From IMG/VR virus record IMGVR_UViG_3300005613_000376, positions 1-25,630 of that record: a stretch of 25,630 nt of DNA, one strand, 5' to 3'. A model generated the notes under the pieces. The model was not told the origin of the DNA. It ran no database searches and worked only from the letters and a program-made list of their open reading frames with translations. The position numbers and the translations under genes were made by a program. Of this stretch, positions 10,053 to 25,000 are shown one piece after another (positions within the stretch are counted from its first letter, which is position 1; every line of letters starts with the position of its first letter). The DNA is from a virus.

Positions 10053-10086
10053 AAGTGACCTTAAAGGCCTAATTAGTAATTAAAAA

Positions 10087-10995: not shown

Positions 10996-11014
10996 AGTTT
11001 TATCTCCTTATTCC

Positions 11015-11596: not shown

Positions 11597-11657
11597 AATT
11601 GTTACTCCTTAGTTAGTTAGTTGTTAGTTTAATAACCCGATGGCCTTTTCTAAAAAA

Positions 11658-12131: not shown

Positions 12132-12143
12132 ATTTAGCTCCTT

Positions 12144-13148: not shown

Positions 13149-13168
13149 TGTATAGCTCCTTAGTCATG

Positions 13169-13624
13169 TTAGTATGTATGTAAGACATCCTCTGGATTGT
13201 CTACGGTTGCAATGATTTCATCATCGTTTAGAATACGCACTTCACCGCCTTCAATTTTGAAACGGCTACCAGCATATCTTCCAAAAATAATCCAGTCGTT
13301 AGTTTTACACCATGGACCACTTGGAAATTTTTCTTTATCCTTGTAACAAAGGTCACCTTGTTTCAAAACTAAACCTACTACGGTTGTCATTTGAATTCTT
13401 TCCTGTGTTACATCTGAATAAATAATTCCGCCCTTTGTTTTTTGGGGACCAGAATAAGGTAGTACTAACATTCTCCAACCAGTTGGTTGAGGAAGTTTTT
13501 CTAATGCAGATTTGTCGATTGAGTTTTTGTCAAGATAAAGTTTTTCAACTTTTTCTTTTTCTTTGTACGCGTTTAACAATCCCTCTTTTTTTGAAGGGAT
13601 CTCGCTCGTTGCCGAGTTAGTCAT
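13169..13624 (-). CDS. GroES-like co-chaperonin (Cpn10 fold)
   Basis: 151 residues. After a 45-residue Lys/Glu-rich N-terminal extension, residues 47-147 follow the GroES order: 'PTGWRMLVLPY', a mobile-loop region 'KTKGGIIYSDVTQER' with the hydrophobic tripeptide after Gly-Gly, 'TTVVGLVLKQGD', 'KTNDWIIFGRYAGSRFKI', and 'VRILNDDEIIATVDNPED'. Host GroES caps GroEL; phage versions such as T4 gp31 replace it so that the large capsid protein can fold. It stands directly upstream of scaffold and capsid genes, which fits that role. The N-terminal extension and Cys92/Cys106 are unusual for the family. The fold call is confident; the capsid client is inferred. Confidence 0.8.
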   Translation of the reverse strand: MTNSATSEIPSKKEGLLNAYKEKEKVEKLYLDKNSIDKSALEKLPQPTGWRMLVLPYSGPQKTKGGIIYSDVTQERIQMTTVVGLVLKQGDLCYKDKEKFPSGPWCKTNDWIIFGRYAGSRFKIEGGEVRILNDDEIIATVDNPEDVLHTY

Positions 13625-13625
13625 A

Positions 13626-13808
13626 TTATAGCTCCTGTTTTTTTAGCAGGTCCCGAAGGTCCTGAAGCAGATCATTTATTGATCTGATTTGTCCTATTAT
13701 ATATTGATATTGATCCCATGTGTCAACACCAAAAATAACTTTAGATTCTAGAAGTTCTTTTTTCTCTTTTAACTTCTTTTCAATGTATTTAACTGTATCT
13801 ATGTCCAT
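13626..13808 (-). CDS. 60-residue coiled-coil protein
   Basis: MDIDTVKYIEKKLKEKKELL, then 'KVIFGVDTWDQYQYIIGQIR' and a helical end. Two charged helices around a short hydrophobic aromatic centre suggest a helical hairpin or dimer. Its end codons (CAG GAG CTA TAA) also form the ribosome site AGGAGCTATAATATG of the co-chaperonin gene, so the two are coupled. The start shares a base with the stop of the membrane-protein gene (TAATG at 13808). Similar short proteins occur beside phage head genes; function unknown. Confidence 0.7.
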   Translation of the reverse strand: MDIDTVKYIEKKLKEKKELLESKVIFGVDTWDQYQYIIGQIRSINDLLQDLRDLLKKQEL

Positions 13809-14185
13809 TACTTACGTCGCATAATATCAGCACCCTTGAGTCCATAAATTGCCGATACAACACCAATAAAAATAGCTTGGTACCAGTAAGGTAAATTTTG
13901 AAAATGATCAAAGAAGAGAGTCAATTTACGATGAATTTCTGGATCGTCAGAAAAAACAGACCAACCCAGTAACAAGATAGGAAGAGATATGAGAATAAGG
14001 ACAAACTCATCTTTGTACCCGTTGTCGTTGGATTCAATAATTTTTGCCTTATATTCAAGTTCACCTTTCGCCATCTTCTCAGCATGTAATGCTTGAGCAT
14101 CTGACATTAACATTTTAGTTTTTTGTTTATTTTGATAAATATGTGACGCCGTCTTAACACCCATCGATAATAATTTCAACCACAT
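13808..14185 (-). CDS. Two-helix membrane protein, holin candidate
   Basis: 125 residues. After a polar helical N-terminus (SDAQALHAEKMAKGELEYKA), residues 61-79 (FVLILISLPILLLGWSVFS) and 100-118 (YWYQAIFIGVVSAIYGLK) are transmembrane helices joined by a charged loop with aromatic residues, ending in a basic tail MRRK. This resembles, from memory, holin-type proteins of gene-transfer agents and marine phages. The basic tail would stay in the cytoplasm. It lies in the head block rather than beside the endolysin, which is odd for a holin. TAATG junctions on both sides. Confidence 0.65.
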   Translation of the reverse strand: MWLKLLSMGVKTASHIYQNKQKTKMLMSDAQALHAEKMAKGELEYKAKIIESNDNGYKDEFVLILISLPILLLGWSVFSDDPEIHRKLTLFFDHFQNLPYWYQAIFIGVVSAIYGLKGADIMRRK

Positions 14186-14850
14186 TATTTGACTCCTGTG
14201 AATTTAAATCCTTTGATCGCTGCGCCTTGGCCTCTGATGCCATCCGGTCGGTGAGGACAAACCATACCGCCTTTTTTCATCCCTTGTGGATTCGGTCCTC
14301 TTTTTGGTGGAGGCCCTGATTTAACCCCACCTGATAAACCTCCTCGTTTTAATTCAAAAGCAAATTTTCTTGGTGTAACTTTTTGTAGTGGAATAGGAAC
14401 AGTTGGTTTAACCGCTACTTGAGGTAAAATCATCGGATCTTTTCTCTGACCACCATCACCACCATCTCTTGTCATTGTTGGTGTAGTTCTTCTACCTGTA
14501 GTTAACATCTCGCCACCAAGAACATCTTCTTTTTTCTGTTCTTTTAAATTTTTAGCGTTATAAAAACTTTGAATCATTTTATTTGCAAGATAAGTCGTAG
14601 GACCAATAACAGGTAATTGTGGAGGACTTTTTCTAGCAGTTACTGTTTTATCTTGTCTGCCTCCAAAATTTTGACTTTGTGTAGATTTTGCATAATCAGC
14701 TTTACTCATTCCACGTTGTTGAAAATCTGTGTCTCTTCCTCCACCGCCTCCCGATGACTTACTGCCACCAGTTTTACCACCCATGCCCATTCCCGCATCT
14801 CTTCCTGATGCAGCTTTAAGAACTTTTAGTTTTTTTCTTTTTTTCGACAT
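14185..14850 (-). CDS. Basic Gly-rich protein with K-x-G-G motifs
   Basis: 221 residues from the ATG at 14850 (MSKKRKKLKVLKAASG). A longer start at 14907 in the same frame would overlap the well-supported gene at 14816-14959 far more, so I prefer 14850. The protein is Gly/Lys/Ser/Pro-rich and probably unfolded, with one helical patch 'YLANKMIQSFYNAKNLKEQK'. Lys-x-Gly-Gly motifs occur in 'FELKRGGLSGG' and 'GMKKGGMVCPH'. The end RGQGAAIKGFKFTGVK matches the end of the protein at 4230-4964 and, in 'GGxVCxxGQGxA' form, the 17289-17489 protein. A virion-associated role is inferred; no known activity. Confidence 0.65.
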   Translation of the reverse strand: MSKKRKKLKVLKAASGRDAGMGMGGKTGGSKSSGGGGGRDTDFQQRGMSKADYAKSTQSQNFGGRQDKTVTARKSPPQLPVIGPTTYLANKMIQSFYNAKNLKEQKKEDVLGGEMLTTGRRTTPTMTRDGGDGGQRKDPMILPQVAVKPTVPIPLQKVTPRKFAFELKRGGLSGGVKSGPPPKRGPNPQGMKKGGMVCPHRPDGIRGQGAAIKGFKFTGVK

Positions 14851-14959
14851 TTTTAATTGTACCTTTATTTTTCGAAGCATAAAAGACCTGTTCAGCCTTT
14901 TTTCCATACTGTTTTTTCATGGATTTCATGATTTTTTTGCCTTTTGGGTTTAATGGCAT
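14816..14959 (-). CDS. 47-residue conserved Lys-rich phage protein
   Basis: MPLNPKGKKIMKSMKKQYGK, then 'KAEQVFYASKNKGTIKNVEK' and a Lys-rich end. The pattern 'MPLNxKGKKIMKxMKxQYG' with 'FYASKNKGTI' is one I recall from many phages as a short conserved protein, so this is a real gene despite its size. Its ATG shares a base with the portal stop (TAATG at 14959). It overlaps the next gene by 35 bases. Function is not established; its steady place after the portal gene hints at a role in portal assembly or packaging. Confidence 0.8.
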   Translation of the reverse strand: MPLNPKGKKIMKSMKKQYGKKAEQVFYASKNKGTIKNVEKKKKTKSS

Positions 14960-17289
14960 TAGTTACCTCGTTGTTTTATCTGTTCTTCTTGCAATTCTAA
15001 ACGTTTTCTTTGAATTTCTTCGTTCAAAGTCTGTTTATCTTCGTCTAAAGTCTGTTTTGCACCAAATTTTGTTGCATCAAACTCCATTTTTTCTTGTTGT
15101 TCTTGCATTTTACGTTGTAGATCCATCGCTCGAAGGTCAATTTCTTGTTGTTTTAACTGAACAAGCGGGTCTTGGTTAGCTTGAGCATAGAATTGACGCT
15201 CCATTTGAGCTAAACTTTGTGTTTCCATTGCAATTTGCTCTGAAACTTTTGATTCAAACAAGATTGAGAACTCTTCTGGCTTCTCCATTTGCAATCTTTT
15301 CATCTCTTCATCAGAAGTCATCTCTGCAAACACACGATTTTTAACTTTTAGACCCACATGTTCCATTAAATGTCCTTGAAGCAAGGCATACACTTGTGGA
15401 TTAATCTGTACCATTCTTGATTGCATGAAAGCCATGTGTGCATTTAAGTGTGCATCATGGTTCTGTTCTGGAAATGCTTTTGGTAAAGTCATTCTTAATG
15501 CGTTTGCATTCTCTTGAGCAGGGTCGAGGGGTTTCGGAGGCTCAGGAGCCGGTTGTAATATTGCTGGAATATTTTTAACCCCTAATGATTCGTACATTCT
15601 TCTGTATGCTTCATGTAAATTATGAATTTGTGGATTTGATTGAGCAAGTTGCAGCTCAGTCTGTGCCATTTGTATTCTTTGTGCCATTGAGAAGATGTTA
15701 GGATCCGCAACAGGAATAATATCGACTTTGTCATCAAAATCTTGAAGCTTAATACTTCTTGATGCACCATAGACATCATATGGATATTCTGGTGGTAAAT
15801 AACTTGCAAATACATTTGCTAATAATTTAAACTCATTTTTTTGTGCGTAGTAACATCGTTTGTGAATTGCAGACATTACCCGTGAACCTCTTTCCAGCAA
15901 CGCAATCGTTGTTCCAACCGCTGCAGTTTGATTCGCATCTCCAACTTGCATGTCAGCGATCATCGCAAACCGTTTACCAGCATCTACACAATAGCCTAAG
16001 AGTTGGTATAACGTTGCACTTGGTTCGGCGAACGGTAACAATTGAAACTGGTCTTTGATGTTTCCTCCAGGAGCATCTACATCTCTAAACTCTCCTGGTT
16101 GTAAGGGTTCTGCATCATCCCTAATTCTTAATCCTCTAGACTTAAATCCAGCAGGTAAATTTTTTAAGGTGGCTGCATCCAACAGTTGTCGGAGTGCGGA
16201 GGTCGCTGCACGGGACAGTCCACCGATCATATGGATCAAACCAAATCCATAGAAACCTAATCCTGGTAAAAATTTATAATGAACAAAATATTGTTTCTTT
16301 CTTTTTAATTCATCCTCTTCTTTGTAGTTTCTGTAAATAGACAAGATCTGCATTGAGTCTTCATCAATCGTAACCACATATGGAATCTTAATTCCATTTT
16401 CATCTTCGTAACCTGGTAAATCCAAGTTCACATGCATTTCAATTAAATTATATAAACTCGCTCTTGCTTCTGTGTTTTTAACGCCTTCAATTTCTTGATA
16501 CTTCTTCTCTGTATCACTTTGATCCATGTATGGTTTTGGAAGCTCAATGTCTTTATAAAAACCTGATACTTGTAATTTTCTTAAATCGTTTTCAGTTGTT
16601 TTTACAATTTGTGTAATTCGTTCTGCTTCCATTAAATCGGTTGCATTGTAAGGTACTACTAAATCTTCTGCAGGAATAAATTTAGAAACTGCTCTCCCTA
16701 ATAATGAATCGTAATATACTTTTTTAAACGCTGAACCTGCAAGCGGTAAATAAAATAACATCTGGTCATAGTCTGGAGTGTACTCTTCCATGACATCTGT
16801 TATTTGATAATTCATAAAATCTCTTACACGAATAGATTGTTGTTCCTTCTCTTCAGTAGGTGCTCCGACAATCTCAGTTCGTACAGGACCATCTGCGGGA
16901 AGTAATTCTTTGAATGCTTGTGCTTGAAACTGGGTTGCGGATTCCGCTAACAGTGGATGAGTAACTCCTGATGCTCCAACGAACGGTCTTGTTTGTGACT
17001 CGTATTTAAATCCTAACAAGTCTAATCCTTTAACATAATTATCGACCCAGTCTTTTCTCGACATCTTGTCGTTTTTATAATCTTCTAATAACTTGATCGC
17101 GACTGCTTTTAAATCTTGGTCATCAATATTCTCTGCTAAGTTCGAAAAAAAATTTTCTTCCTTAACAACTTCTTCTTCACCTGCAATTAAATTATTGTCT
17201 TCATCCACAACCGTATCGACTGTTTCAGCATTTAAGGGGTCAACGGCATTATCGGATTCTTCGATTTCTATTCTGTCTTCTTCTTCCAT
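14959..17289 (-). CDS. Portal protein
   Basis: 776 residues, close to the size of P22-type portals. An acidic N-terminus is followed by 'VDNYVKGLDLLGFKYESQTR', 'QAFKELLPADGPVRTEIVG', 'MLFYLPLAGSAFKKVYYD' and 'DLVVPYNATDLMEAERITQI'. The region 'FLPGLGFYGFGLIHMIGGLS' and 'ATSALRQLLDAATLKNLPAG' is characteristic of portal proteins, and the last 150 residues are a long Gln/Glu-rich helix (EQQEKMEFDATKFGAKQT) as in the portal barrel. The dodecameric ring would be the DNA channel at one capsid vertex, binding terminase during packaging and the adaptors afterwards. The start overlaps the upstream stop by one base. Confidence 0.85.
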   Translation of the reverse strand: MEEEDRIEIEESDNAVDPLNAETVDTVVDEDNNLIAGEEEVVKEENFFSNLAENIDDQDLKAVAIKLLEDYKNDKMSRKDWVDNYVKGLDLLGFKYESQTRPFVGASGVTHPLLAESATQFQAQAFKELLPADGPVRTEIVGAPTEEKEQQSIRVRDFMNYQITDVMEEYTPDYDQMLFYLPLAGSAFKKVYYDSLLGRAVSKFIPAEDLVVPYNATDLMEAERITQIVKTTENDLRKLQVSGFYKDIELPKPYMDQSDTEKKYQEIEGVKNTEARASLYNLIEMHVNLDLPGYEDENGIKIPYVVTIDEDSMQILSIYRNYKEEDELKRKKQYFVHYKFLPGLGFYGFGLIHMIGGLSRAATSALRQLLDAATLKNLPAGFKSRGLRIRDDAEPLQPGEFRDVDAPGGNIKDQFQLLPFAEPSATLYQLLGYCVDAGKRFAMIADMQVGDANQTAAVGTTIALLERGSRVMSAIHKRCYYAQKNEFKLLANVFASYLPPEYPYDVYGASRSIKLQDFDDKVDIIPVADPNIFSMAQRIQMAQTELQLAQSNPQIHNLHEAYRRMYESLGVKNIPAILQPAPEPPKPLDPAQENANALRMTLPKAFPEQNHDAHLNAHMAFMQSRMVQINPQVYALLQGHLMEHVGLKVKNRVFAEMTSDEEMKRLQMEKPEEFSILFESKVSEQIAMETQSLAQMERQFYAQANQDPLVQLKQQEIDLRAMDLQRKMQEQQEKMEFDATKFGAKQTLDEDKQTLNEEIQRKRLELQEEQIKQRGN

Positions 17290-17489
17290 TAATACATCCT
17301 TGTTCTTTTTTTACGAGCTTTGCCTTGTCCTTTACAGACAATCCCACCTGATTTCAAGTTAACTCCTATTTCTTTTTTGGCACCCTCTGCTCCGATTCCC
17401 GCAGACCGTGCTTTTTTTAATTCAAACTCTTTGAGTTGAGCAGGATCGGGTGAAGTAACGGTGGTTGCTAATTCTGAGACTGTTTTCAT
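17289..17489 (-). CDS. Small protein with S-G-G-I-V-C motif between terminase and portal
   Basis: 66 residues. 'ELATTVTSPDPAQLKEFELK' leads into a Lys-rich C-terminus 'LKSGGIVCKGQGKARKKRTR'. The end shares 'GG(I/M)VC' and 'GQGxA' with the protein at 14185-14850, showing a family relationship or exchanged tail. The single Cys within the motif is conserved between the two. Two bases separate its start from the terminase stop, and its stop is coupled to the portal start (TAATG). Role unknown; the position suggests packaging or head assembly. Confidence 0.65.
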   Translation of the reverse strand: MKTVSELATTVTSPDPAQLKEFELKKARSAGIGAEGAKKEIGVNLKSGGIVCKGQGKARKKRTRMY

Positions 17490-17491
17490 AA

Positions 17492-18970
17492 TTACATATA
17501 ATATTTTTGTTCCATTTGCAAACGCTCCTGCGCTTCGACGATCTCATCGTAGTCTGCGCTTACAAAATTACCTTGCCTATATCTTAACACAGCTTGGGTC
17601 ATACTGTCGACATAGTCATCATGTTCCCCAAAAGGAAAAGCTGCACATTCTTCAATAACTTCTTCTGCAAAGTTTTCCCCTTCTGGATAATACACCATTC
17701 CTGAAGAAAATACAGGGGATACTGCATTTATTCTTGCATGTTTGTCTTTTCCACGACTTGGAACGAAATCCATTACAGGAATCCCCATCTTTCTTAATTC
17801 TTGAATTAACGGTTGACCGGTGGCTTTTGCCTCAATCACTACAGATTCGGGTTGCCAATATTTATATTGCTCTAACGCAACTTCTTTTAAATCAGGAAAA
17901 TCATATCGACCCTTCATCGCATCGATTAAGATTAATGCTGGTGCCCCGCCTTCCGTAGGATAGAATACGCCCCACGTAGTGATTGCAGAATAATCCGCTG
18001 TTTCTTTTTTACTGAATGCAGTATCGTAACTTTGAATAACATATTGAAGATTAGGGAGATCACCTTTCCAAGGTCTCCACCATTCTCGTTTAATGATTGC
18101 ACCTTCTTCTGAAGTTGGGTCTTGCATGTACTGTGCATTCCATCTCGTTACAGGAATAGAGGCTTTTACTTTTTCTAATTCTTCTAACTTCCAATACTCA
18201 GGCCAGACAGGATTACCTGATTCAAGGATCGCGGGGAACGAGATCACTTCCCAGTTGTCGGCTTTCGGATTGGTCTGTGCTTTAATTAAACGCCCAGTGA
18301 GGTCGTCGGTTGCCCAACGAGTCATAACTACTACAATCGCACCCCCTGGTTGTAAACGTTGTCTTGGTCCTGATACATACCAGTCGTATGTCTTTTCCAT
18401 GGCTGTCTCAGACATAACATTTTGTTCGGTGTGCGGGTCATCGATAATTAAAATATCAGCACCACGTCCTGTGATTGCTCCACCTACCCCAGCTGCGAAG
18501 TATTCACCACCGTGATTGGTTTCCCATCGACCAGACGCTTTGGAATCAGCAGCTAGTTTTACATCCCTGAAAATTCTTTGATACGCTTCATCGTTAACGA
18601 TGTTACGAACCTTACGACCGAATCGTTGAGAGAGTTCTGCGTTGTGAGATACCTGCATTAATTTTGCATCAGGACGGAGTCCCATAATCCAAGCAGGAAA
18701 ATATACTGATGCGAATTCGGATTTCGTATGACGGGGAGGCATGTTGACAATCAATCTTTTGATCTTGCCTTGAGCAACCTTAGTTAATTTGTCAGCAATT
18801 ATCTGGTGGTGACCCCAGTTAGAAGGTTCCTTAGCTTCTCGACAAATAAAATCTGGCCACACCCCTTTGACAAACTGCAGGAAATTTTCCTTAGCATCAA
18901 CAATTTTTTTGGCCTCTAATAATTTTTTTAGTTTAATTAATTTCTCTTTTGGTACGTTTTCGAAGTCCAT
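17492..18970 (-). CDS. terL: Terminase large subunit
   Basis: 492 residues. ATPase part: 'LIVNMPPRHTKSEFASVYFP' gives the Walker A-like loop (residues 78-84), 'ADILIIDDPH' the Walker B strand (173-179), and 'VVVMTRWATDDLTGRL' the coupling motif. Nuclease part: 'SYDTAFSKKETADYSAI' (Asp316), 'VVIEAKATGQPLIQEL' (Glu380) and 'HDDYVDSMTQAVLRY' (Asp451/452/455) supply the metal-binding acidic residues of the RNase H-like fold. The enzyme cuts concatemeric DNA and drives it into the prohead through the portal. It is the first gene of the late operon. No Shine-Dalgarno sequence precedes the ATG; a promoter -10 lies only a few bases upstream. Confidence 0.92.
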   Translation of the reverse strand: MDFENVPKEKLIKLKKLLEAKKIVDAKENFLQFVKGVWPDFICREAKEPSNWGHHQIIADKLTKVAQGKIKRLIVNMPPRHTKSEFASVYFPAWIMGLRPDAKLMQVSHNAELSQRFGRKVRNIVNDEAYQRIFRDVKLAADSKASGRWETNHGGEYFAAGVGGAITGRGADILIIDDPHTEQNVMSETAMEKTYDWYVSGPRQRLQPGGAIVVVMTRWATDDLTGRLIKAQTNPKADNWEVISFPAILESGNPVWPEYWKLEELEKVKASIPVTRWNAQYMQDPTSEEGAIIKREWWRPWKGDLPNLQYVIQSYDTAFSKKETADYSAITTWGVFYPTEGGAPALILIDAMKGRYDFPDLKEVALEQYKYWQPESVVIEAKATGQPLIQELRKMGIPVMDFVPSRGKDKHARINAVSPVFSSGMVYYPEGENFAEEVIEECAAFPFGEHDDYVDSMTQAVLRYRQGNFVSADYDEIVEAQERLQMEQKYYM

Positions 18971-19118: not shown

Positions 19119-19448
19119 TTATTGATTTCTTTTATCGACCTTAACTATCTCAACCAACTGAGGGTTAACGTATTTGTAAAACAAATCATTATTTTGTTCT
19201 TTAAATAACTTTTGATTAAACACGTTACGAGTTTGTTCAGTGATATCTAAAACAAATAAATTATTGTCTTTAGTTCCATTATGGAAACTAATTGGACATA
19301 AAGATTTATATTGTTTTAAATCATCAACTAATTGTTTTTCAGTTGCCTTTAAGTTTTTGATTTCAGTTCTTATAGTATGCAATTGAATAATTGCTCTATA
19401 AGTTTTTAAAGGCATTGTTTTTTGTTTAGGTGTTTTTATATTTTTCAT
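19119..19448 (-). CDS. Hypothetical early protein
   Basis: 109 residues, starting MKNIKTPKQKTMPLKTYRAI. Residues 20-50 form a charged helix (IRTEIKNLKATEKQLVDDLK) that could be coiled coil. The C-terminal half is 'FVLDITEQTRNVFNQKLFKE' and 'LFYKYVNPQLVEIVKVDKR'. A helix followed by a short beta part with 'LxITEQTR' recalls accessory proteins of phage recombination or nuclease systems, but I cannot name it. It has its own sigma70-type promoter (TTGCAT-16-TATAAT at 19515-19488) carrying the ATATCCCATGAT element and the site AAAGGAG. It ends before the stem-loop at 19084-19107. Confidence 0.65.
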   Translation of the reverse strand: MKNIKTPKQKTMPLKTYRAIIQLHTIRTEIKNLKATEKQLVDDLKQYKSLCPISFHNGTKDNNLFVLDITEQTRNVFNQKLFKEQNNDLFYKYVNPQLVEIVKVDKRNQ

Positions 19449-19487: not shown

Positions 19488-19515
19488 ATTATAAGGATAT
19501 CCCATGATAATGCAA
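19488..19515 (-). promoter_or_regulatory. Promoter A with ATATCCCATGAT element in its spacer
   Basis: Minus strand: TTGCAT (19515-19510), 16 bases, then a perfect TATAAT (19493-19488). The spacer holds the exact 12-mer ATATCCCATGAT (plus strand 19497-19508), also found exactly at 21223-21234. The promoter would drive the gene starting at 19448. A protein bound to the element would cover the space between -35 and -10, the classical place for repression. Confidence 0.65.
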
Positions 19516-19564
19516 ATACTTTTTAACTACTTTTAAAAAAAAAGTTAACAACTGGTTTTAACGA

Positions 19565-19630
19565 CAACCTAGAGTTGCATTTTACAGGATCAACTTAACT
19601 CAGGACCAAGCTCAGTACAACCTCAAGTTG
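19565..19630. repeat. Pair of 13-bp near-palindromes 53 bp apart
   Basis: CAACCTAGAGTTG at 19565-19577 and CAACCTCAAGTTG at 19618-19630 differ at two positions. Each has CAAC/GTTG half-sites. The 53-base offset is close to five turns of DNA, so proteins on both would face the same side. A shorter direct repeat TTG(G/A)TCCTG (minus sense) lies between. No coding frame fits this 243-base gap between two minus-strand genes. Confidence 0.4.
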
Positions 19631-19644
19631 TTTGTCCAGTTATT

Positions 19645-19680
19645 AAAAAACCCGGCTAAGAATTAACTCAACCGGGTTCA
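19645..19680 (-). terminator. Intrinsic terminator after the 19692-19997 gene
   Basis: AACCCGG (19649-19655) pairs with CCGGGTT (19672-19678). On the minus strand the stem is followed by TTTTAATAA, giving a T-run of six including the stem base. The gene's stop codon is 14 bases before the hairpin. Loop of 16 bases, larger than usual. Confidence 0.7.
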
Positions 19681-19691
19681 GTGTTTATTAA

Positions 19692-19997
19692 TTAATCTCC
19701 GAATAATACATTATTCATTATTTGAGTTCTTAATAACTTCGCATTAGGTTTATGAGCTACATCTAACCACTCATTGCCCCTCTTAACCTCTTTAATCTGA
19801 TAAGCATATATTGAGCCCATCTCATCAAAGAACCCGATTTGAGAGCCCTTAGCATCAATTAGAATTGTAGTCTTTAATCCTCGACCTTGATTAACAGACT
19901 CCATAAGAACACCCTCGCAAAGCGTTCCTAATTGATTTGATTTTATAATGTCTCCTTTTTTAAGGTCATTAAACATTATCACTTTTTTGTCATTCAT
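19692..19997 (-). CDS. Conserved hypothetical early protein
   Basis: 101 residues. 'MFNDLKKGDIIKSNQLGTLC' followed by 'GLKTTILIDAKGSQIGFFDE' and 'MGSIYAYQIKEVKRGNEW' looks like a small beta-barrel (SH3-like) protein, with 'LKKGDII' as in many barrel starts. No Cys cluster or enzyme motif. It is the leftward gene of a divergent promoter (20024-20058); the site AAAGGATACAATTATG precedes the start. It ends before an intrinsic terminator. I recall similar short proteins in marine phages without a known role. Confidence 0.7.
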   Translation of the reverse strand: MNDKKVIMFNDLKKGDIIKSNQLGTLCEGVLMESVNQGRGLKTTILIDAKGSQIGFFDEMGSIYAYQIKEVKRGNEWLDVAHKPNAKLLRTQIMNNVLFGD

Positions 19998-20023
19998 AAT
20001 TGTATCCTTTCATTAATTATTAT

Positions 20024-20058
20024 ATTGACATAATATCTCATGAGTATAAGATGTCAAT
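20024..20058. promoter_or_regulatory. Divergent promoter B, symmetric, with degenerate CATG element
   Basis: Perfect 8-bp inverted repeat ATTGACAT (20024-20031) and ATGTCAAT (20051-20058), 19 bases apart. Each arm is a consensus -35 (TTGACA). Leftward: TTGACA-16-TATTAT. Rightward: TTGACA-16-TAAGAT. The -10 of one direction overlaps the -35 of the other. ATATCTCATGAG (20033-20044) lies at the centre and is a 10/12 match to the shared element. It feeds the genes starting at 19997 (minus) and 20082 (plus). Confidence 0.65.
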
Positions 20059-20081
20059 TAAATAAAAATGGAGGATACAAA

Positions 20082-20279
20082 ATGACAAAAAATATTGAAG
20101 TCGAAGTTTACGGTTTTAATAGTCAAAAAGAATTTGATGAGGCTAATGAAAAGCACATCAAAATCATGAAAAAAGTTGAGGAGAAATTTAAAGACCGACC
20201 TAAAGATAAGTTCGGAAATTTAATTATCTCGGAGGAAGTATCAACTTATATCTTAAAACTAAAAAAGGAGCAAAAATGA
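20082..20279 (+). CDS. Hypothetical small acidic/basic helical protein
   Basis: 65 residues, MTKNIEVEVYGFNSQKEFDE, then charged helix and 'FGNLIISEEVSTYILKLKKE'. I chose the ATG at 20082 because GGAGGATACAA directly precedes it. The upstream in-frame ATG at 20040 lies inside the promoter. Its stop overlaps the next start by 4 bases (ATGA). No family recognised. First gene of a short rightward early operon under promoter B. Confidence 0.65.
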   Translation: MTKNIEVEVYGFNSQKEFDEANEKHIKIMKKVEEKFKDRPKDKFGNLIISEEVSTYILKLKKEQK

Positions 20280-20548
20280 AAAAACAATTACTAGGAGGCA
20301 CAGGGGTTGACAGTGGTCAACTCCTAATCACTGACCCGTGTTATGTTGAAATGAGTGGTCCTAACAAGGGCATCACTTACGACGACATGATATGTAATGG
20401 CGTTGAACCTAAACAACTTATTAATAAGTTCGGGGCAGAAGTCGGGTTAGTTCTTCCAACATTACACGGCGACGGATTTTACGGAGTTAAAGGTAATTAC
20501 GATAAGCACGGAAGAATAACTTCAATTACAATCAACTTAAATTACTAA
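20276..20548 (+). CDS. Small protein with V-D-S-G-x-x-x-x-x-D-P-C-Y motif
   Basis: 90 residues. 'GVDSGQLLITDPCYVEMSGP' near the N-terminus is a pattern I recall in a widespread phage and bacterial family of small unknown proteins, usually 80-150 residues. The rest is beta-type ('EVGLVLPTLHGDGFYGVKGN', 'GRITSITINLNY'). The conserved Asp/Ser/Asp/Cys residues of the motif could form an active or metal site, but no activity is known to me. It begins with an ATGA overlap with the upstream gene, so it is translated from the same message. Confidence 0.7.
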   Translation: MKKQLLGGTGVDSGQLLITDPCYVEMSGPNKGITYDDMICNGVEPKQLINKFGAEVGLVLPTLHGDGFYGVKGNYDKHGRITSITINLNY

Positions 20549-20550
20549 TA

Positions 20551-20577
20551 GAGGAGTGAGGGGAGCAATCCCCTCAT
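20551..20577 (+). promoter_or_regulatory. Hairpin between a Shine-Dalgarno sequence and its start codon
   Basis: GAGGAG at 20551-20556 is followed at once by an 8-bp stem TGAGGGGA / TCCCCTCA (20557-20564 with 20569-20576) with loop GCAA, then nine bases, then ATG at 20586. Unfolded, the distance of 29 bases is too long for initiation. Folding the 20-base hairpin brings the distance to 9. T4 gene 25 is a known case of such a bridged site. No U-run follows, so it is not a normal terminator. Confidence 0.5.
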
Positions 20578-20585
20578 AACAAATC

Positions 20586-20768
20586 ATGAAATATAAATAT
20601 AAAGGTTATTCAATTGGAATGGATTTTGACACTAAAAAAATAACGTGTGAAAAGGATGACGATTTTATAACTTTTTACCCGAAAAATTCCACCAGTACAT
20701 TAGAGGAAATCAAAATTTCCGCGTTCGGTCGGATCGACGATAGAATAAAATATTTAGATAAAAGATAA
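20586..20768 (+). CDS. Hypothetical small protein with hairpin-bridged ribosome site
   Basis: 60 residues, MKYKYKGYSIGMDFDTKKIT, then 'DDFITFYPKNSTSTLEEIKI' and 'GRIDDRIKYLDKR'. Beta-type N-terminal half and helical C-terminal half, mixed charge. No family recognised. It has no ordinary Shine-Dalgarno sequence; see the hairpin at 20551-20577. It is the last gene of the rightward operon, ending four bases before a strong two-way terminator. Confidence 0.6.
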   Translation: MKYKYKGYSIGMDFDTKKITCEKDDDFITFYPKNSTSTLEEIKISAFGRIDDRIKYLDKR

Positions 20769-20769
20769 A

Positions 20770-20805
20770 AAAAAGGGGAGCAATTGCTCCCCTTTAATTT
20801 TTTTA
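20770..20805. terminator. Bidirectional intrinsic terminator between convergent genes
   Basis: The perfect palindrome AAAGGGGAGCAA/TTGCTCCCCTTT (20772-20795) is flanked by A-runs on the left and T-runs on the right. It gives a stem with a trailing U-run in both directions. It separates the plus gene ending at 20768 from the minus gene ending at 20803. Confidence 0.85.
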
Positions 20806-21195
20806 GATTTCAGCCTCGAATGAACAAACGTCGTTTTCCTCGACACATTTTTTGATTTTTTCTCCAAGGTCAAGTCGAGCATACCAACCTAACATGTTCC
20901 GAACATTTCTTTCAGTTCCTAACATAATGTTGTGTTTGTCCTCAAAATACTTACACATCATTTGATGGTTCCAACCCATATTTTCTTCAAAAAATGTATC
21001 AAGTATTTTTTTATGTTCTCCTAATGCTTTTTTACATTTGGAGATACCTTTTTTGATGTCCTCTAGATTATCCTTATCAAAAGTATAATGTAAATAATCC
21101 GAGTGACCCTCGACGCCAAAAAAGTCAGCGTCATTGCTTGATTGAACAGCAAACATAAATTTGCCTTCAATGTCTCCACTATAGTATCGTCCCAT
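20803..21195 (-). CDS. Conserved hypothetical phage protein
   Basis: 130 residues from MGRYYSGDIEGKFMFAVQSS. This start is chosen because GGAGGATACAAA precedes it; a longer frame from 21237 runs into the promoter. 'SNDADFFGVEGHSDYLHYTF' and 'CKKALGEHKKILDTFFEENM' follow, ending 'CVEENDVCSFEAEI'. I recall 'MGRYYSGDIEGKFxFxVQSSxDADFFG' from marine phages, function unknown. The acidic, Cys- and aromatic-rich sequence suggests a compact soluble protein. It is expressed leftward from divergent promoter C and ends at the shared terminator. Confidence 0.7.
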   Translation of the reverse strand: MGRYYSGDIEGKFMFAVQSSNDADFFGVEGHSDYLHYTFDKDNLEDIKKGISKCKKALGEHKKILDTFFEENMGWNHQMMCKYFEDKHNIMLGTERNVRNMLGWYARLDLGEKIKKCVEENDVCSFEAEI

Positions 21196-21216
21196 TTTGT
21201 ATCCTCCTTTTTTTAG

Positions 21217-21247
21217 TTGACTATATCCCATGATCATATAAAGTCAA
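21217..21247. promoter_or_regulatory. Divergent promoter C with exact ATATCCCATGAT
   Basis: Inverted TTGACT (21217-21222) and AGTCAA (21242-21247) are 19 bases apart, the same spacing as promoter B. Leftward: TTGACT-16-TATAGT. Rightward: TTGACT-16-TAAAGT, or TATAAA at a spacing of 14. The exact 12-mer ATATCCCATGAT occupies 21223-21234. It drives 21195 leftward and 21282 rightward; both messages share the GGAGGATACA ribosome site. Confidence 0.65.
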
Positions 21248-21281
21248 TACATAACCATAAATAAAAATAGGAGGATACATT

Positions 21282-21638
21282 ATGGGATATACTAACTATT
21301 GGACTTATAAAAAGCCCTTTGATAATAACGAGTGGTCAAAAATAAAAGATGAATACGACTACATCGTTGAAAACTTTGATGGAACTATCATCAAAAACGA
21401 GACCCCAGTTAAACACAAAGATGAAGTAATTGTCTTTAATGGTGTAGGGGCAAACTCTCATGAAACATTTGTCTTGTTTAAAGATTTTACGAAGCGAGAC
21501 AGAAGTTATGAGGGGCAAGACTTAGGTTTTGATTTTTGCAAAACTAATCGAAAGCCCTATGATCTCGCCGTTTGGCATATGTTAACATTTGCTAAAAATG
21601 TTAATGATGATAAAATCGAAATAAGGAGGGATCGATAA
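21282..21638 (+). CDS. Conserved phage protein starting M-G-Y-T-x-Y-W
   Basis: 118 residues. 'MGYTNYWTYKKPFDNNEWSK' at the start, 'VIVFNGVGANSHETFVLFKD' in the middle and 'DLGFDFCKTNRKPYDLAVWH' near the end belong to a family I recall in many phages and some bacteria ('MGYTHYW...HExF...FDFCKTxRKPYD'). The invariant His-Glu, Phe-Cys-Lys-Thr and Pro-Tyr-Asp suggest a functional site, but no activity is known to me. GGAGGATACATT precedes the ATG. Its stop shares a base with the next start (TAATG). Confidence 0.75.
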   Translation: MGYTNYWTYKKPFDNNEWSKIKDEYDYIVENFDGTIIKNETPVKHKDEVIVFNGVGANSHETFVLFKDFTKRDRSYEGQDLGFDFCKTNRKPYDLAVWHMLTFAKNVNDDKIEIRRDR

Positions 21639-21883
21639 TGAGTAATAATAAATTATGGCTTGATAAGGTGCGAAAGCACCTTGTCGGGCAAACGATAACA
21701 GATGTCAAATGGTTAAGTCCCAAAGATACCGAAAAATATTTCGGATGGGATACTCAACCTTGTGAAATCTTTTTATCAAATGGCGTTGTCCTAACGCCTC
21801 AATCGGATGACGAAGGCAACGACGCAGGAGCAATTGCAACGACTATTGACGACTTGCCAATTATTCCAGTTTTTAGAGATTAA
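21638..21883 (+). CDS. Conserved hypothetical protein, coupled to upstream gene
   Basis: 81 residues. 'LWLDKVRKHLVGQTITDVKW', 'CEIFLSNGVVLTPQSDDEGN' and 'DLPIIPVFRD' form a pattern I recall in small phage proteins of unknown function: a helical start, a short beta sheet, an acidic 'SDDEGNDAGA' loop and a 'PIIPV' end. It is coupled by TAATG to the M-G-Y-T-x-Y-W family gene. It ends shortly before a terminator. No enzyme motif can be named. Confidence 0.7.
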   Translation: MSNNKLWLDKVRKHLVGQTITDVKWLSPKDTEKYFGWDTQPCEIFLSNGVVLTPQSDDEGNDAGAIATTIDDLPIIPVFRD

Positions 21884-21889
21884 TTAAAA

Positions 21890-21922
21890 ATAAAAAAAAA
21901 GGGGGCGATTACTCGCCCCTTC
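21890..21922. terminator. Terminator between convergent genes
   Basis: GGGGCGA (21902-21908) pairs with TCGCCCC (21913-21919), loop TTAC. On the minus strand the stem is followed by a run of at least nine T, so it is a strong terminator for the gene 21944-22624. On the plus strand the tail TTCTTCCC is weaker but may also end the rightward operon. Confidence 0.8.
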
Positions 21923-21943
21923 TTCCCGCTTGGAAGGATACAG

Positions 21944-22624
21944 TTAAGCGGAAACCGTGAAACCGTATTTGTCTTTTTTTGCTCGACCCTTAGCAAGTAA
22001 ACCAACAACCACATTTGATTTATTTTTAAATCGCATGTCATGTAAATCACCGTTGATCACTTTGTATTTCTTATAAAGCTTCGGCAACTTATCTTTAAAG
22101 ACAACCGCGACTGGTGACTTTTTAATTAGTTTAAAAGCTTCCTTCTCATTAGTTTCGGATCGTGAAAAGGTTAAATGGTAATTGCCAGGCTGATTGTCAT
22201 GGATCCGGTTATCTCCCTTTGTATAGTCGTAGAATGTCACTGTCGGGAAATGGTCCATTAAATTTTTACCCTGATACAAATATTTTTCCCAGGGTAAGTC
22301 GGACGTACCATTCAAACGGATCGCCAGTTTCATTTTTTTCTTTTTAGCCCGGCGTAATAGTGTAGTTATATCACTATGCAGCTCAGCCAAAAATTTATTA
22401 CGATCTTTAAAAAAGGCCAGTGTTTTATTTATTCGGGCCGATTGGACCGATCGCATTTGACCTCGGCCAGCTTTATATAAACAGCCGTCAATACAGCCAG
22501 GCGAAGCCCAGGGACAAACATTTTTGCCGCTAGTTTTATGAGGCGCCAGGTATAGGATCCCGGTTATCACCCCGTATTTCATAGACTTAATTGTTTTCCA
22601 ATTAGTATTTACTTGTAGTAACAT
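21944..22624 (-). CDS. Cys-cluster protein, DUF7227-like
   Basis: 226 residues. 'LYLAPHKTSGKNVCPWASPG' and 'CIDGCLYKAGRGQM' give Cys37, Cys44 and Cys48 (C-x6-C-x3-C). Alternating strand-like segments follow: 'KLAIRLNGTSDLPWEKYLY', 'TVTFYDYTKG', 'YHLTFSRSETNEKEAF', 'VAVVFKDKLP', 'VINGDLHDMRF' and 'VVVGLLAKGRAKKD', in the order of a TIM barrel. I recall this as DUF7227. Three closely spaced Cys at the barrel mouth recall iron-sulfur or radical SAM-like proteins, but the spacing is not C-x3-C-x2-C and no activity is established. Promoter D lies upstream with GGAAGGATATATG. Confidence 0.7.
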   Translation of the reverse strand: MLLQVNTNWKTIKSMKYGVITGILYLAPHKTSGKNVCPWASPGCIDGCLYKAGRGQMRSVQSARINKTLAFFKDRNKFLAELHSDITTLLRRAKKKKMKLAIRLNGTSDLPWEKYLYQGKNLMDHFPTVTFYDYTKGDNRIHDNQPGNYHLTFSRSETNEKEAFKLIKKSPVAVVFKDKLPKLYKKYKVINGDLHDMRFKNKSNVVVGLLAKGRAKKDKYGFTVSA

Positions 22625-22654
22625 ATATCCTTCCTTTGTTTTAGTTATCCCACG

Positions 22655-22682
22655 AATATAAGACTATAAATATAAATGTCAA
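22655..22682 (-). promoter_or_regulatory. Promoter D with degenerate element downstream
   Basis: Minus strand TTGACA (22682-22677), 16 bases, TATATT (22660-22655). A 9/12 version of the shared element (plus-strand TTATCCCACGAA, about 22645-22656) overlaps the -10 and the start region rather than the spacer. It would drive the Cys-cluster gene starting at 22624. Confidence 0.55.
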
Positions 22683-22691
22683 CTAAAAAAT

Positions 22692-22946
22692 TTATTGATA
22701 ATTAGGAACTGGTAACTCGTCAGGGCCAACCTGGTTTTCATAAACCCTGGCCTGAAGCTGCACGTCGTACCGGTCACTGTCCCGGTCAATTGCTGGCCTT
22801 AGCCTGGTGAGGGCTGCTTTGAGCTTTTCTTTAGTTTGAAAAGCGATCCTAATGTCCCGGTGTTTTGCACCAGCTGTGTAATACCAGCCTCCTTCTTCAT
22901 GGCCACCGAAAGCCCGGTAAGTTTGGTATATAGATATAAAATACAT
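22692..22946 (-). CDS. Small conserved protein with E-E-G-G-W motif
   Basis: 84 residues. 'YQTYRAFGGHEEGGWYYTAG' near the N-terminus matches a pattern I recall in phage and plasmid proteins ('YGGPEEGGWWY'), function unknown. The rest, 'IRIAFQTKEKLKAALTRLRP' and 'SDRYDVQLQARVYENQVGP', is helix then strand. G+C is clearly higher than in its neighbours (35 of 60 bases at 22741-22800), and it uses CGG/CTG/GCC codons seldom seen nearby, suggesting recent transfer. GGAAGGAAATATG precedes the start, beyond a long structured leader. Confidence 0.65.
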   Translation of the reverse strand: MYFISIYQTYRAFGGHEEGGWYYTAGAKHRDIRIAFQTKEKLKAALTRLRPAIDRDSDRYDVQLQARVYENQVGPDELPVPNYQ

Positions 22947-22972
22947 ATTTCCTTCCTTTCTAAACTAGTGAC

Positions 22973-23195
22973 CCCGACCCAGGCTACCGGGTCGGGATCG
23001 ATTAGTATGGGTCCTTACACCACTTTACTAATTTTACTCCTGGGGTGTCCCGGCTCAAGGCTACGACTAGACCAGAAGCACGGCCGGGTCATTGCCTATA
23101 GGGTAACCCGGCCTTCGACCAGTAAAAATTGTCTGTGTTAACTTTTTACGGGTCGAAGGCATCGACGGTTAACTCGGTCAAAAGTCGACCGTCGA
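22973..23195 (-). ncRNA. Candidate structured RNA or leader with four stem-loops
   Basis: The 348-base gap between genes holds four perfect inverted repeats: 22973-22980 with 22989-22996 (8 bp); 23082-23089 with 23106-23113 (8 bp, GGCCGGGT/ACCCGGCC); 23111-23120 with 23151-23160 (10 bp), continued by 23122-23128 with 23143-23149 (7 bp); and 23162-23169 with 23188-23195 (8 bp). Stems 2 and 3 share three bases and so compete or stack. G+C reaches 36 of 60 bases at 23041-23100. Promoter E (23286-23259) points leftward into it, so it would be transcribed as a leader of about 300 bases before 22946 or as a separate RNA. The strand follows from that promoter. No convincing coding frame was found in it. 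I do not recognise a known RNA family. Confidence 0.5.
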
Positions 23196-23258
23196 CCCAT
23201 TCGTAGTCGATCAAAAACAGGAGCTATAAAAAAGTTTTAAATCGAACTACCAATTATC

Positions 23259-23286
23259 CTTTTATCATCATGGGAGATAGTGTCAA
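23259..23286 (-). promoter_or_regulatory. Promoter E with element in its spacer
   Basis: Minus strand TTGACA (23286-23281), 16 bases, TAAAAG (23264-23259). The spacer contains ATCTCCCATGAT, 11/12 identical to the shared element and in opposite orientation to that in promoter A. It lies just beyond the nuclease stop codon (23295) and would start a transcript running through the stem-loop region toward 22946. Confidence 0.55.
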
Positions 23287-23294
23287 CTATTTTT

Positions 23295-23669
23295 TTATAA
23301 ATTTTTTAAAAAATTTTTTAAATTTTGCCAGTTCACCGGCTCCCGTAATACGCGAATCGGTGGATCGGAAAGAGGGTCACGGGTTGAGGGTCTCGGTTTG
23401 AAAAGTTTTAGCGCTCTCTCCTTGGGTACGGAAACCAGGATAAAAACGCGTCCACCATGTTTTAATCTGGTATAAATCCAGACCTTCTGGAAGCGACTTA
23501 GCTTACCTCGGCTTACCTTTAATTCGATCCATCCTTCAACGCCTTCGATACAGTAATTTATGTCAGGAACGCCTTGAATTGTACTTGTTTCTATTCTTTG
23601 AAAGTGCGCGTCTTTTATGTGTTTTTTTATTCTTTGGTACAACTTTGATTCGGCTTTTTTCAACGCCAT
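23295..23669 (-). CDS. PD-(D/E)XK nuclease, VRR-NUC-like
   Basis: 124 residues. 'HFQRIETSTIQGVPDINYCI' then 'GVEGWIELKVSRGKLSRFQ' gives the pattern Glu27 ... Pro-Asp36 ... Glu49-x-Lys51, the metal site of the PD-(D/E)XK fold. 'QKVWIYTRLKHGGRVFILVS' is the usual following helix and strand of VRR-NUC-type phage endonucleases, which cut branched or flap DNA. The C-terminus is a short basic tail ending in Asn/Leu/Lys. The first 107 bases overlap the end of the metallopeptidase-like gene in another frame. It probably acts in phage replication, recombination or host DNA breakdown. Confidence 0.75.
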   Translation of the reverse strand: MALKKAESKLYQRIKKHIKDAHFQRIETSTIQGVPDINYCIEGVEGWIELKVSRGKLSRFQKVWIYTRLKHGGRVFILVSVPKERALKLFKPRPSTRDPLSDPPIRVLREPVNWQNLKNFLKNL

Positions 23670-24009
23670 CTAGACCTCCTGAAATAGCATTTTGTAGGTA
23701 GGGTAAAAACCACTTATTATCTCTTATAACTTGGGATATAGAATTAGCAAGTGCATTTACAGTTAACTCCTCGCTATCGTCTTTTGAAAGGGCTCCACCA
23801 TCAGAATTTAGACCAGTTTGATACACACATCCGTGCAAAACTTCATGTAAAAGGGTGTTGGCCTCCTGTCTTGGGGTCATTCCTTTAGCGATTTCAATGA
23901 CTGAAGAAGAAGCTTTAAACTCACCTAATGCATCATTTTGTTTTTGAGGGGTGAAATCGACCTTCTGAATTTTTATATCGTCGTATCCTATTTTTATCTT
24001 TTTTTTCAT
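23563..24009 (-). CDS. HExxH metallopeptidase-like protein
   Basis: 148 residues. 'RQEANTLLHEVLHGCVYQTG' contains His55-Glu56-x-x-His59, and 'DSEELTVNALANSISQVIRD' supplies Glu80/81 as a third ligand, in the manner of small zinc peptidases. The N-terminal part 'IKIGYDDIKIQKVDF' and 'LGEFKASSSVIEIAKGM' is the usual beta sheet before the helix. I recall the family from phages, with no known substrate. Residues after about 113 are very basic and are encoded in the 107-base overlap with the nuclease gene, so they may be an extension beyond the domain. AGAGGTGAAAGTAAATG gives a good start. Confidence 0.7.
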   Translation of the reverse strand: MKKKIKIGYDDIKIQKVDFTPQKQNDALGEFKASSSVIEIAKGMTPRQEANTLLHEVLHGCVYQTGLNSDGGALSKDDSEELTVNALANSISQVIRDNKWFLPYLQNAISGGLDGVEKSRIKVVPKNKKTHKRRALSKNRNKYNSRRS

Positions 24010-24157
24010 TTACTTTCACCTCTACTGAACCAACAGAACTTCCTATCAAGTGCCCGTTGTGGATCTCGTGAAATAAATTCCACCAATCTCTCTCAGTCTT
24101 TAGATTCTTTAATTTCTTCTGCTGGGACTTCGACAACATTGGCTTGAGGTATTTCAT
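23933..24157 (-). CDS. Possible small protein filling the gap before the metallopeptidase
   Basis: 74 residues. Only the middle (about residues 22-50, 'ERDWWNLFHEIHNGHLIGSS') lies outside neighbouring genes. It overlaps the small terminase end by 65 bases and the metallopeptidase start by 77. The Trp-Trp and His-rich middle looks like real protein sequence. A later start is possible because the first 20 residues fall inside the terminase gene. No clear ribosome site. Weakly supported. Confidence 0.35.
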   Translation of the reverse strand: MKYLKPMLSKSQQKKLKNLKTERDWWNLFHEIHNGHLIGSSVGSVEVKVNEKKDKNRIRRYKNSEGRFHPSKTK

Positions 24158-24587
24158 CCTGTAGTTTTTTTATTTGATCTATTAACTCCTCTTTACTCAT
24201 TGAGGATAAATCTTCAACTTTTATTTCAGCCCGGTCAACATAAAAACCAGCAGCTTGACCTAATCTAAATTCAGCGTTTACAGCTGCAGCATACTGGCCT
24301 TTGCCTTCAGCTTTTTTCGATAATGTTTCTAATCTTTTTAAATGTCTCAAGTAATCTTTGAAGTAACCAGATTTTTGGTCCCGAATAATTTCCATGTATG
24401 AAACCACGGCTGGATTTAAATCAGGGTTAGTTAAATTCGATCCTGTCTTAGAAGCAATTGCTTTGCTATACCCGGCCTTCTCGGCAGCTTCAGTTTTAGA
24501 CATGTCTGGATAATTGGCTACATAAATCTCAGCAAATTGTCTTTGTTTCGGTGTGAGCTTGGCTCCTAATCGGTTTAATCGTTTCAT
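24093..24587 (-). CDS. terS: Terminase small subunit
   Basis: 164 residues. 'LTPKQRQFAEIYVANYPDMS' then 'KTEAAEKAGYSKAIASKTGS' is the N-terminal helix-turn-helix of small terminases, followed by 'NLTNPDLNPAVVSYMEIIRD'. The middle is helical (oligomerisation) and the C-terminus acidic (EVPAEEIKESKD), as expected for binding the large subunit. It recognises the packaging site on phage DNA. It lies about 5 kb from the large subunit gene, in the early-type region; the two are usually adjacent. A 10-bp inverted repeat stands just upstream. No strong ribosome site; the context is ATAATAATAAACCATG. Confidence 0.82.
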   Translation of the reverse strand: MKRLNRLGAKLTPKQRQFAEIYVANYPDMSKTEAAEKAGYSKAIASKTGSNLTNPDLNPAVVSYMEIIRDQKSGYFKDYLRHLKRLETLSKKAEGKGQYAAAVNAEFRLGQAAGFYVDRAEIKVEDLSSMSKEELIDQIKKLQDEIPQANVVEVPAEEIKESKD

Positions 24588-24606
24588 GGTTTATTATTAT
24601 CACAAG

Positions 24607-24632
24607 TATACGATGAACGCTATCATCGTATA
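24607..24632. promoter_or_regulatory. 10-bp inverted repeat upstream of the small terminase
   Basis: TATACGATGA (24607-24616) and TCATCGTATA (24623-24632) with a 6-base loop. On the plus strand it is followed by AATTTTTT, so it could be an intrinsic terminator for rightward transcription; no plus gene ends here. As DNA it could be an operator, 20 bases upstream of the terminase start. Just to the right, TACTATA occurs twice (24647-24662 region). Confidence 0.5.
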
Positions 24633-24695
24633 AATTTTTTCAGTCTACTATAGGTACTATATAGTAAAACTACCTCTAACACGAAAAAAAGGTAA

Positions 24696-24782
24696 AAAGT
24701 ACGCTGAAACCAGAATAAGTTAAATAATCCTTATAAAATGCGGTTTATTTTGTCAGCGTAGTAGGCTGAAAGTACGCTGAAA
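24696..24782. repeat. 14-bp direct repeat with inverted copy (non-coding)
   Basis: AAAGTACGCTGAAA occurs at 24696-24709 and exactly again at 24769-24782, 73 bases apart (about seven helical turns). An inverted half TCAGCGTA at 24753-24760 pairs with TACGCTGA at 24773-24780 as an 8-bp stem. A GC-rich cluster with GCGGC/GCCGC hairpin potential follows (24792-24830). No gene was found between 24588 and 24860. The iterated arrangement could be a protein-binding array, for example packaging or replication sites. Confidence 0.5.
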
Positions 24783-24860
24783 TTCTGGGAACGGCAGCCG
24801 AAATGCGGCAACCGCCGCACAATAGCCGCCAAATATGACCACACTGTGGCAAAAATACAA

Positions 24861-24965
24861 CTAAATTCCGCCGTAAAATAATAAGGTTATAAGAGATTTT
24901 AATAGACCAATTGCAATTGGTGTCATCATTAAAACCGCCAAACCAGTAAATATAAATAAAAACAT
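24861..24965 (-). CDS. Possible 34-residue hydrophobic membrane peptide
   Basis: MFLFIFTGLAVLMMTPIAIG ... ends 'LLFYGGI'. Almost wholly hydrophobic, enough for one long or two short membrane helices. It has no Shine-Dalgarno sequence, but promoter F ends only about seven bases upstream, so a leaderless message is possible. It is the only frame of interest between 24588 and 25158. A chance frame in AT-rich DNA is a real alternative, although the clean hydrophobic content is suggestive. Confidence 0.35.
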   Translation of the reverse strand: MFLFIFTGLAVLMMTPIAIGLLKSLITLLFYGGI

Positions 24966-24971
24966 ATAGCT

Positions 24972-25000
24972 TATTTACATGGGATATATAAATTTGTCAA
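24972..25000 (-). promoter_or_regulatory. Promoter F with element in its spacer
   Basis: Minus strand TTGACA (25000-24995) and a weak TAAATA (24977-24972), spacing 17. ATATCCCATGTA, a 10/12 match to the shared element, lies at the end of the spacer and into the -10. It is oriented toward the hydrophobic peptide frame and the small terminase. Confidence 0.45.

Follow-up and report, generated by a model that had tools for sequence, protein, structure and literature searches.

What recognizes the six intergenic copies of a 12-bp sequence, ATATCCCATGAT, that lie at promoters in the viral record IMGVR_UViG_3300005613_000376, and to what effect? The entire IMG/VR record of 25,630 bp was analyzed and is called the window here. 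An original prediction, made from these letters, took the copies to be the operators of one phage or host regulator that controls the whole early region. Comparison with related genomes suggests that they are likely to be operators of one phage-encoded repressor, an Arc-like protein of the ribbon-helix-helix (RHH) class, which would act in the circuit proposed below.

Sequence similarity shows the window to be part of a genome related to those of the Pelagibacter phages HTVC023P and HTVC027P. The TerL of the window shares 70% identity with that of HTVC023P, 65% with that of HTVC027P and 61% with that of 023Pt_psg01 (psg01), and its head-gene or capsid region aligns with HTVC023P DNA. The related terminase, the head genes and the TerS-TerL layout are all traits of HTVC023P-type pelagiphages. 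A late block on the minus strand (665-18970) carries TerL, portal and other late genes, and the window reaches 6.7 kb upstream of TerL. Five of the operators (A to E) fall inside the TerS-TerL interval, and operator F is immediately upstream of TerS. The idea of one shared operator set is retained, but not its extension to the whole early region, as the sites occupy that interval and the DNA directly upstream of it and the strict early region (replication genes and more) falls outside the fragment.

The 20-bp inverted repeat

The positions and sequences of the six copies were all correct on re-examination. The copies are wholly intergenic, as had been claimed, though intergenic DNA makes up only about one-quarter of the region from 19.0 to 25.1 kb. 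In the window there are two exact copies of ATATCCCATGAT (0.0025 expected), four copies with up to one mismatch (0.15 expected) and 10 copies with up to two mismatches (2.6 expected), and the last count was never reached in the 400 first-order Markov resamplings of the window from which the expected numbers were taken. The 12-mer thus recurs beyond chance at up to two mismatches. No excess is seen in the window at up to three mismatches (23 copies, 27 expected), so the three-mismatch copy at 22645 is not significant alone. It is validated by relatives: the orthologous promoter has exactly CATGGGATA in L009, L011 and L013. We scored sites with a position weight matrix (PWM) anchored on promoters, under which the six sites range from 12.8 to 20.2 bits. 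The best match in the late block reaches 12.3 bits and is in coding sequence, which agrees with the claim that no comparable copy occurs among the late genes. A PWM iterated without the promoter anchor was rejected, having drifted to CCCATTTCCCAT, an unrelated tandem repeat of some relatives. One copy of the 12-mer with at most one mismatch had not been listed (21279-21290, minus strand). It covers the start codon of the gene at 21282 and is kept in relatives, and it is probably coincidental because Met-Gly-Tyr codons are located there.

The relatives show that the 12-mer is a part of the element, one half-site plus the spacer, and that the whole is an inverted repeat of 20 bp, TATCYYAT-N4-ATRRGATA. 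The comparison set consisted of 80 TerL relatives together with the window, HTVC023P and psg01. The half-site TATCCCAT has 91 copies in the 329 kb upstream of TerL and 4 in the 481 kb downstream, compared with 10 and 5 copies, respectively, for the reversed sequence. Enrichment upstream of TerL is seen for the half-sites TATCCCAT, TATCTTAT, TATCCTAT and, less so, TATCTCAT, which are variants at the YY positions. The exact dyad occurs 18 times upstream of TerL and never downstream, and with up to one mismatch the counts are 37 and 0. A dyad form with a 5-bp spacer is found six times upstream and is likewise absent downstream, and scrambled, everted and direct-repeat layouts have no exact match and at most one match with one mismatch. 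Among 39 nonredundant promoter-linked sites, the right half (ATRRGATA) peaks only at offset 12, with a mean of 4.31 of 8 matching letters, whereas the maximum over all offsets was 4.0 in 500 shuffles. The two-fold symmetry that had been taken to imply a dimeric regulator is therefore real, but symmetry centered on CATG is ruled out, given that the second half-site is at offset 12.

The element is also retained at orthologous promoters, and it is present in many related phages. TATCCCAT sites recur at TTGAC promoters of close relatives and of HTVC023P, which has an operator at 16556-16575. Operator C is identical at 20 of 20 positions in L009, L011 and L013 and at 18 of 20 in L014. In L009, site A has the strong half ATAAGATA in place of ATGGGATA, and site B keeps the dyad with changes confined to the YY/RR positions; both are what the degenerate letters predict. 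Complete relatives have no strong promoter-linked copies at their structural genes or their replication operon, and the only strong site elsewhere is usually at the promoter of the candidate regulator's own operon.

A candidate ribbon-helix-helix regulator

A family of RHH-like proteins of 57-80 amino acids is encoded by HTVC023P (gp13), HTVC027P (gp21), psg01 (10602-10775), G001 to G006 and others. Profile search detected the family in 22 of 40 operator-carrying contigs, against 0 of 40 controls. In 18 of 35 genomes the 2 kb preceding the RHH gene contain an operator with TTGAC on the strand of the gene, compared with 0 of 192 late 2-kb segments, and the operator directly adjoins the gene in G012, G016 and G040. 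HTVC027P has a variant form, ATCCTATA, with six of its seven copies at TTGAC promoters, namely those of the RHH gene gp21 and of gp02, gp33, gp34, gp36 and gp38. According to PMC12753301, gp33/gp34 form a temporal class of their own by RNA-seq, early to middle, with high levels at 6-9 hours post-infection.

The AlphaFold2 model of a compact family member has two helices and an extended N-terminal strand, with a predicted local distance difference test (pLDDT) score of 82.6. Its best Foldseek matches are structures of P22 Arc (1myl, probability 0.98; 1b28, 0.96), followed by MatP, CopASO, AmrZ and CopG. Nearly all of the top matches listed are RHH DNA-binding proteins, with individual E-values of 0.1-1.9. 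An earlier model, of a longer homolog, was weak (pLDDT 69.5, Foldseek E-values of at least 3). Only three columns, K7, S8 and A10, are at least 90% conserved among 30 sequences, and they are in the N-terminal strand, which is presumed to contact DNA. Another family member comes near to Pfam RHH_4 and RHH_7 (E-values of 0.04-0.06) but stays below the cutoff. The regulator could not be named with confidence from Pfam, PHROGs or NCBIfam, and a sequence search of solved structures returned nothing useful. The family is thus predicted to be RHH-like by its modeled fold and not by curated sequence score. One subfamily, YRN, uses only TATCCTAT; since this is seen in three close contigs, a relation between half-site letters and RHH subfamily is a hint that we do not press into a claim.

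Several observations weigh against assigning the operators to this protein. Profile searches detected no RHH gene in the window. No standard dyad was found upstream of the RHH gene in G005, G006, L064, L028 and others. The psg01 member missed the Pfam cutoff for RHH_1 (E-value 0.0023; 18.3 vs. 20.5 bits), and no single Foldseek E-value for the model, a short chain, is below 0.1. Sites A and C have a weak right half (4 of 8 letters). In the four closest relatives the operators, though retained, are no more conserved than their flanks, which leaves the conservation test neutral. Furthermore, the link between RHH gene and operator is co-occurrence within one phage lineage, where common descent is a confounder, and three other families of the same operon (fam13, fam14 and fam28) share the distribution of the RHH gene. 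The lack of an RHH gene in the window can be explained by the extent of the fragment. The closely related G001, whose TerL is 96% identical to that of the window, has its RHH gene about 10 kb upstream of TerL, and the window ends about 3.5 kb short of this position.

The shared distribution also bears on who binds the dyad. Another phage protein, such as fam14 or fam13, or a helix-turn-helix (HTH) protein encoded outside the window, might bind the operator while the RHH protein has a different target. We consider this unlikely, though it deserves some weight given how close to the RHH gene fam13, fam14 and fam28 are encoded. No DNA-binding family was recognized in the scanned members of these three families, and the RHH fold, the conserved strand, the 20-bp dyad and the operator at the gene's own promoter together fit the RHH protein best.

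Promoter geometry, distribution and the proposed circuit

A TTGAC-type promoter is present at all six copies, as predicted. The copies had been placed mostly in the spacer, and they are either there or overlap the -10 element or the start site. Operator A sits between the -35 (TTTGCA, 19516) and the -10 (TATAAT, ending at 19488) of the minus-strand promoter of 19119-19448. Operator B is inside a bidirectional promoter (plus, TTGACA 20025 and TAAGAT 20052; minus, TTGACA 20057 and TATTAT 20030), and so is operator C (plus, TTGACT 21217 and TAAAGT 21244; minus, TTGACT 21247 and TATAGT 21220). The six sites, two of which (12-mers at 20033 and 21223) are in promoters that read in both directions, therefore serve eight promoters and not six, and one complex bound at B or C would close two of them. 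Operator D overlaps the -10 or start of a minus-strand promoter (TTGACA 22682, TATATT 22655). Operator E is downstream of a -35 TTGACA (23286-23281), its promoter driving a structured noncoding stretch and then the gene 22692-22946. Operator F has a -35 TTGACA (25000-24995) and is upstream of TerS on the minus strand.

Where a TTGAC is near, the dyad starts from -1 to 16 bp after it, mostly at 0, 4, 8-9 or 11-13 bp and on either strand, and at these distances its 20 bp extend over the spacer, the -10 or the start. By analogy, such overlap with the -35, the -10 or the start site resembles that of a repressor operator. The tight linkage to TTGAC promoters could also be explained if the dyad were a phage-specific promoter part, for example a spacer or extended -10 for a phage-modified host polymerase, or an activator site. 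This is improbable. A fixed position and orientation would be expected of a promoter element or a classical activator site. The dyad, by contrast, is a true inverted repeat whose strand and distance from the -35 both vary, as fits a blocking repressor.

The distribution of the operator helps to decide between phage and host. In viral contigs, TTGAC followed by the exact dyad within 20 bp gave at least 120 matches, compared with 22 for a scrambled dyad. The TerL lineage of the window was found in 29 of the 40 operator contigs examined among the matches listed, and most of the remaining ones carry the RHH gene. In 257 Gb of bacterial and archaeal genomes, the operator with TTGAC 0-20 bp upstream, the one layout scanned, had 58 matches scattered over phyla, none of them with a title naming Pelagibacter, and the same scan did not find the operator enriched at host promoters. 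Taken together, the viral and bacterial scans and the TerL lineage indicate that the operator belongs to the phage lineage and not to the host. A looser pattern, TTGACN{2,10}TATCCCATG, was uninformative over viral contigs, as its real and reversed forms could not be told apart among the matches listed.

A phage could have copied an operator of its host in order to follow host physiology, with a host regulator binding the sites, and the promoters are indeed host sigma70-like, with no RNA polymerase gene annotated in HTVC023P or HTVC027P. Set against the viral matches, which come mostly from one lineage, the bacterial scan led us to reject such an origin as highly improbable. The Dishui Lake phage DSL-LC04 (OR003939.1), whose TerL is 60% identical, has an assigned gammaproteobacterial host and an annotated HTH protein. 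DSL-LC04 has neither promoter-linked strong operator sites nor an RHH gene, which also argues against a host origin, and it may use a different regulator. The "phage (or host)" of the original prediction can thus be narrowed, the regulator being very likely phage-encoded and not a host protein. That the sites organize or package DNA (MatP-like or TerS/pac) and are near promoters by chance is barely credible, despite MatP being an RHH protein among the Foldseek matches and the sites clustering between TerS and TerL, given that they overlap promoter hexamers and are not beside them and that a further copy turns up well away from the terminase genes, at the promoter of the RHH operon.

For the proposed RHH repressor, then, we infer binding of the dyad, a repressive sign and a timing of early burst and later shut-off. 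Two dimers of the protein probably occupy the 20-bp dyad, each on its own half-site, and the half-site centers are 12 bp apart. A protein bound there would cover the -35, the -10 or the start site of these host sigma70-type promoters and so block host RNA polymerase. As soon as naked phage DNA entered the cell, transcription would start at these promoters, giving expression of the small genes in the TerS-TerL interval together with one structured RNA. The repressor, made from the operon upstream of TerS, would then shut off the operator promoters, its own included (negative autoregulation).

The circuit may, by analogy, work like that of P22 Arc. The Arc operator at Pant is a dyad of about 20 bp, with half-sites 11-12 bp apart, between the -35 and the -10. 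In both cases a small phage RHH protein is paired with a promoter-overlapping dyad of about 20 bp, negative autoregulation is proposed here too, and Arc structures are the best fold matches of the model. Arc acts at one promoter region of a temperate phage. The protein proposed here belongs to a lineage described as lytic and would act through one dyad repeated at several promoters scattered over each genome, among them bidirectional ones and that of a probable noncoding RNA. The two operators also differ in their letters, and the search for a confident match to Arc in sequence found none. CopG, AmrZ and RHH antitoxins also bind promoter-overlapping dyads as RHH dimers and repress their own operons, as is proposed here, but those are plasmid, host or toxin-linked systems, and no toxin partner or copy-control locus, neither of which was sought, was seen in the phage. 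As with lambda-type CI/Cro, one regulator would use several related dyad operators inside promoters. CI and Cro, however, are HTH proteins with a lysogeny decision and tripartite operator clusters, whereas the phage operators are single and dispersed and no integrase is annotated in HTVC023P.

Literature searches found no published description of this operator and regulator system. Novelty lies in the protein family, in the operator sequence and in how a very common marine phage group uses that operator at many scattered promoters. A defined operator, a set of target promoters and a candidate repressor found in both cultured isolates (gp13 of HTVC023P and gp21 of HTVC027P) make the timing circuit directly testable. 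This offers a first testable model of how common marine phages turn off a gene block, and the operator provides a sequence handle for co-regulated accessory genes in uncultured relatives. Promoter and operator could even constitute a portable plug-in module, so that whatever gene or RNA arrived in the variable TerS-TerL interval would fall under one Arc-like timer. We regard this extension as tentative, with the balance slightly against it; if it is true, an abundant marine phage lineage keeps changing accessory genes on a single circuit of early burst and later shut-off.

Features of the window and other repeats

Features of the window, with the six operators and the genes or RNA that they adjoin
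Feature	Coordinates	Strand	Operator sequence	Fixed-letter matches to dyad	Score (bits)	Remarks
Operator A	19498-19517	+	TATCCCAT-GATA-ATGCAAAT	12/16 (left 8/8, right 4/8)	17.5	
Operator B	20034-20053	+	TATCTCAT-GAGT-ATAAGATG	15/16		
Operator C	21224-21243	+	TATCCCAT-GATC-ATATAAAG	12/16 (left 8/8, right 4/8)	18.1	
Operator D	22646-22665	+	TATCCCAC-GAAT-ATAAGACT	13/16	15.3	
Operator E	23258-23277	-	TCTCCCAT-GATG-ATAAAAGG	12/16 (left 7/8, right 5/8)	12.8	
Operator F	24967-24986	-	TATCCCAT-GTAA-ATAAGCTA	15/16	20.2	Best in window
TerL	17492-18970	-				Anchor for fetching relatives; no operator in front
Gene under operator A	19119-19448	-				109 amino acids, unknown; last before TerL
Gene under operator B, minus side	19692-19997	-				101 amino acids, unknown
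Gene group under operator B, plus side	20082-20768	+				65, 90 and 60 amino acids; second is phrog_5209
Gene under operator C, minus side	20803-21195	-				130 amino acids, phrog_33624
Two genes under operator C, plus side	21282-21883	+				118 and 81 amino acids
Gene under operator D	21944-22624	-				GP88 family, PF17338, E-value 3.9e-48
Structured noncoding stretch, candidate noncoding RNA	22950-23255	-				GC-rich; 306 nt, after operator E promoter
TerS (Terminase_2, PF03592)	24093-24587	-				Downstream of operator F

The noncoding stretch behind operator E folds with a minimum free energy of -124.2 kcal/mol (z = -6.6), which none of 100 shuffles equaled, and is GC-rich in an AT-rich genome. 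No Rfam family matched it. Its block GGTAGYTCRA...TAGCTCCTGTTT recurs after operator promoters in L009, L013, L028 and L038. The gene under operator D encodes a homolog of mycobacteriophage gene product 88, of unknown function, which is also found as gp26 in HTVC023P. Between the convergent genes 20586-20768 and 20803-21195 there is a perfect, bidirectional terminator-like hairpin at 20772-20795 (AAAGGGGAGCAATTGCTCCCCTTT).

Two other kinds of repeats were found upstream of TerL in relatives. The tandem CCCATTTCCCAT repeats are in the TerS-TerL interval of one subgroup (L022-L041; e.g., L034 3860-3900). They have at least four G-runs on the other strand, which is G-quadruplex-like, and resemble the operator in letters without being related to it. 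In L009-L088, CGAGAACGAG repeats are found, with 81 copies of CGAGAACG upstream of TerL and none downstream, and these are possibly packaging or replication iterons.

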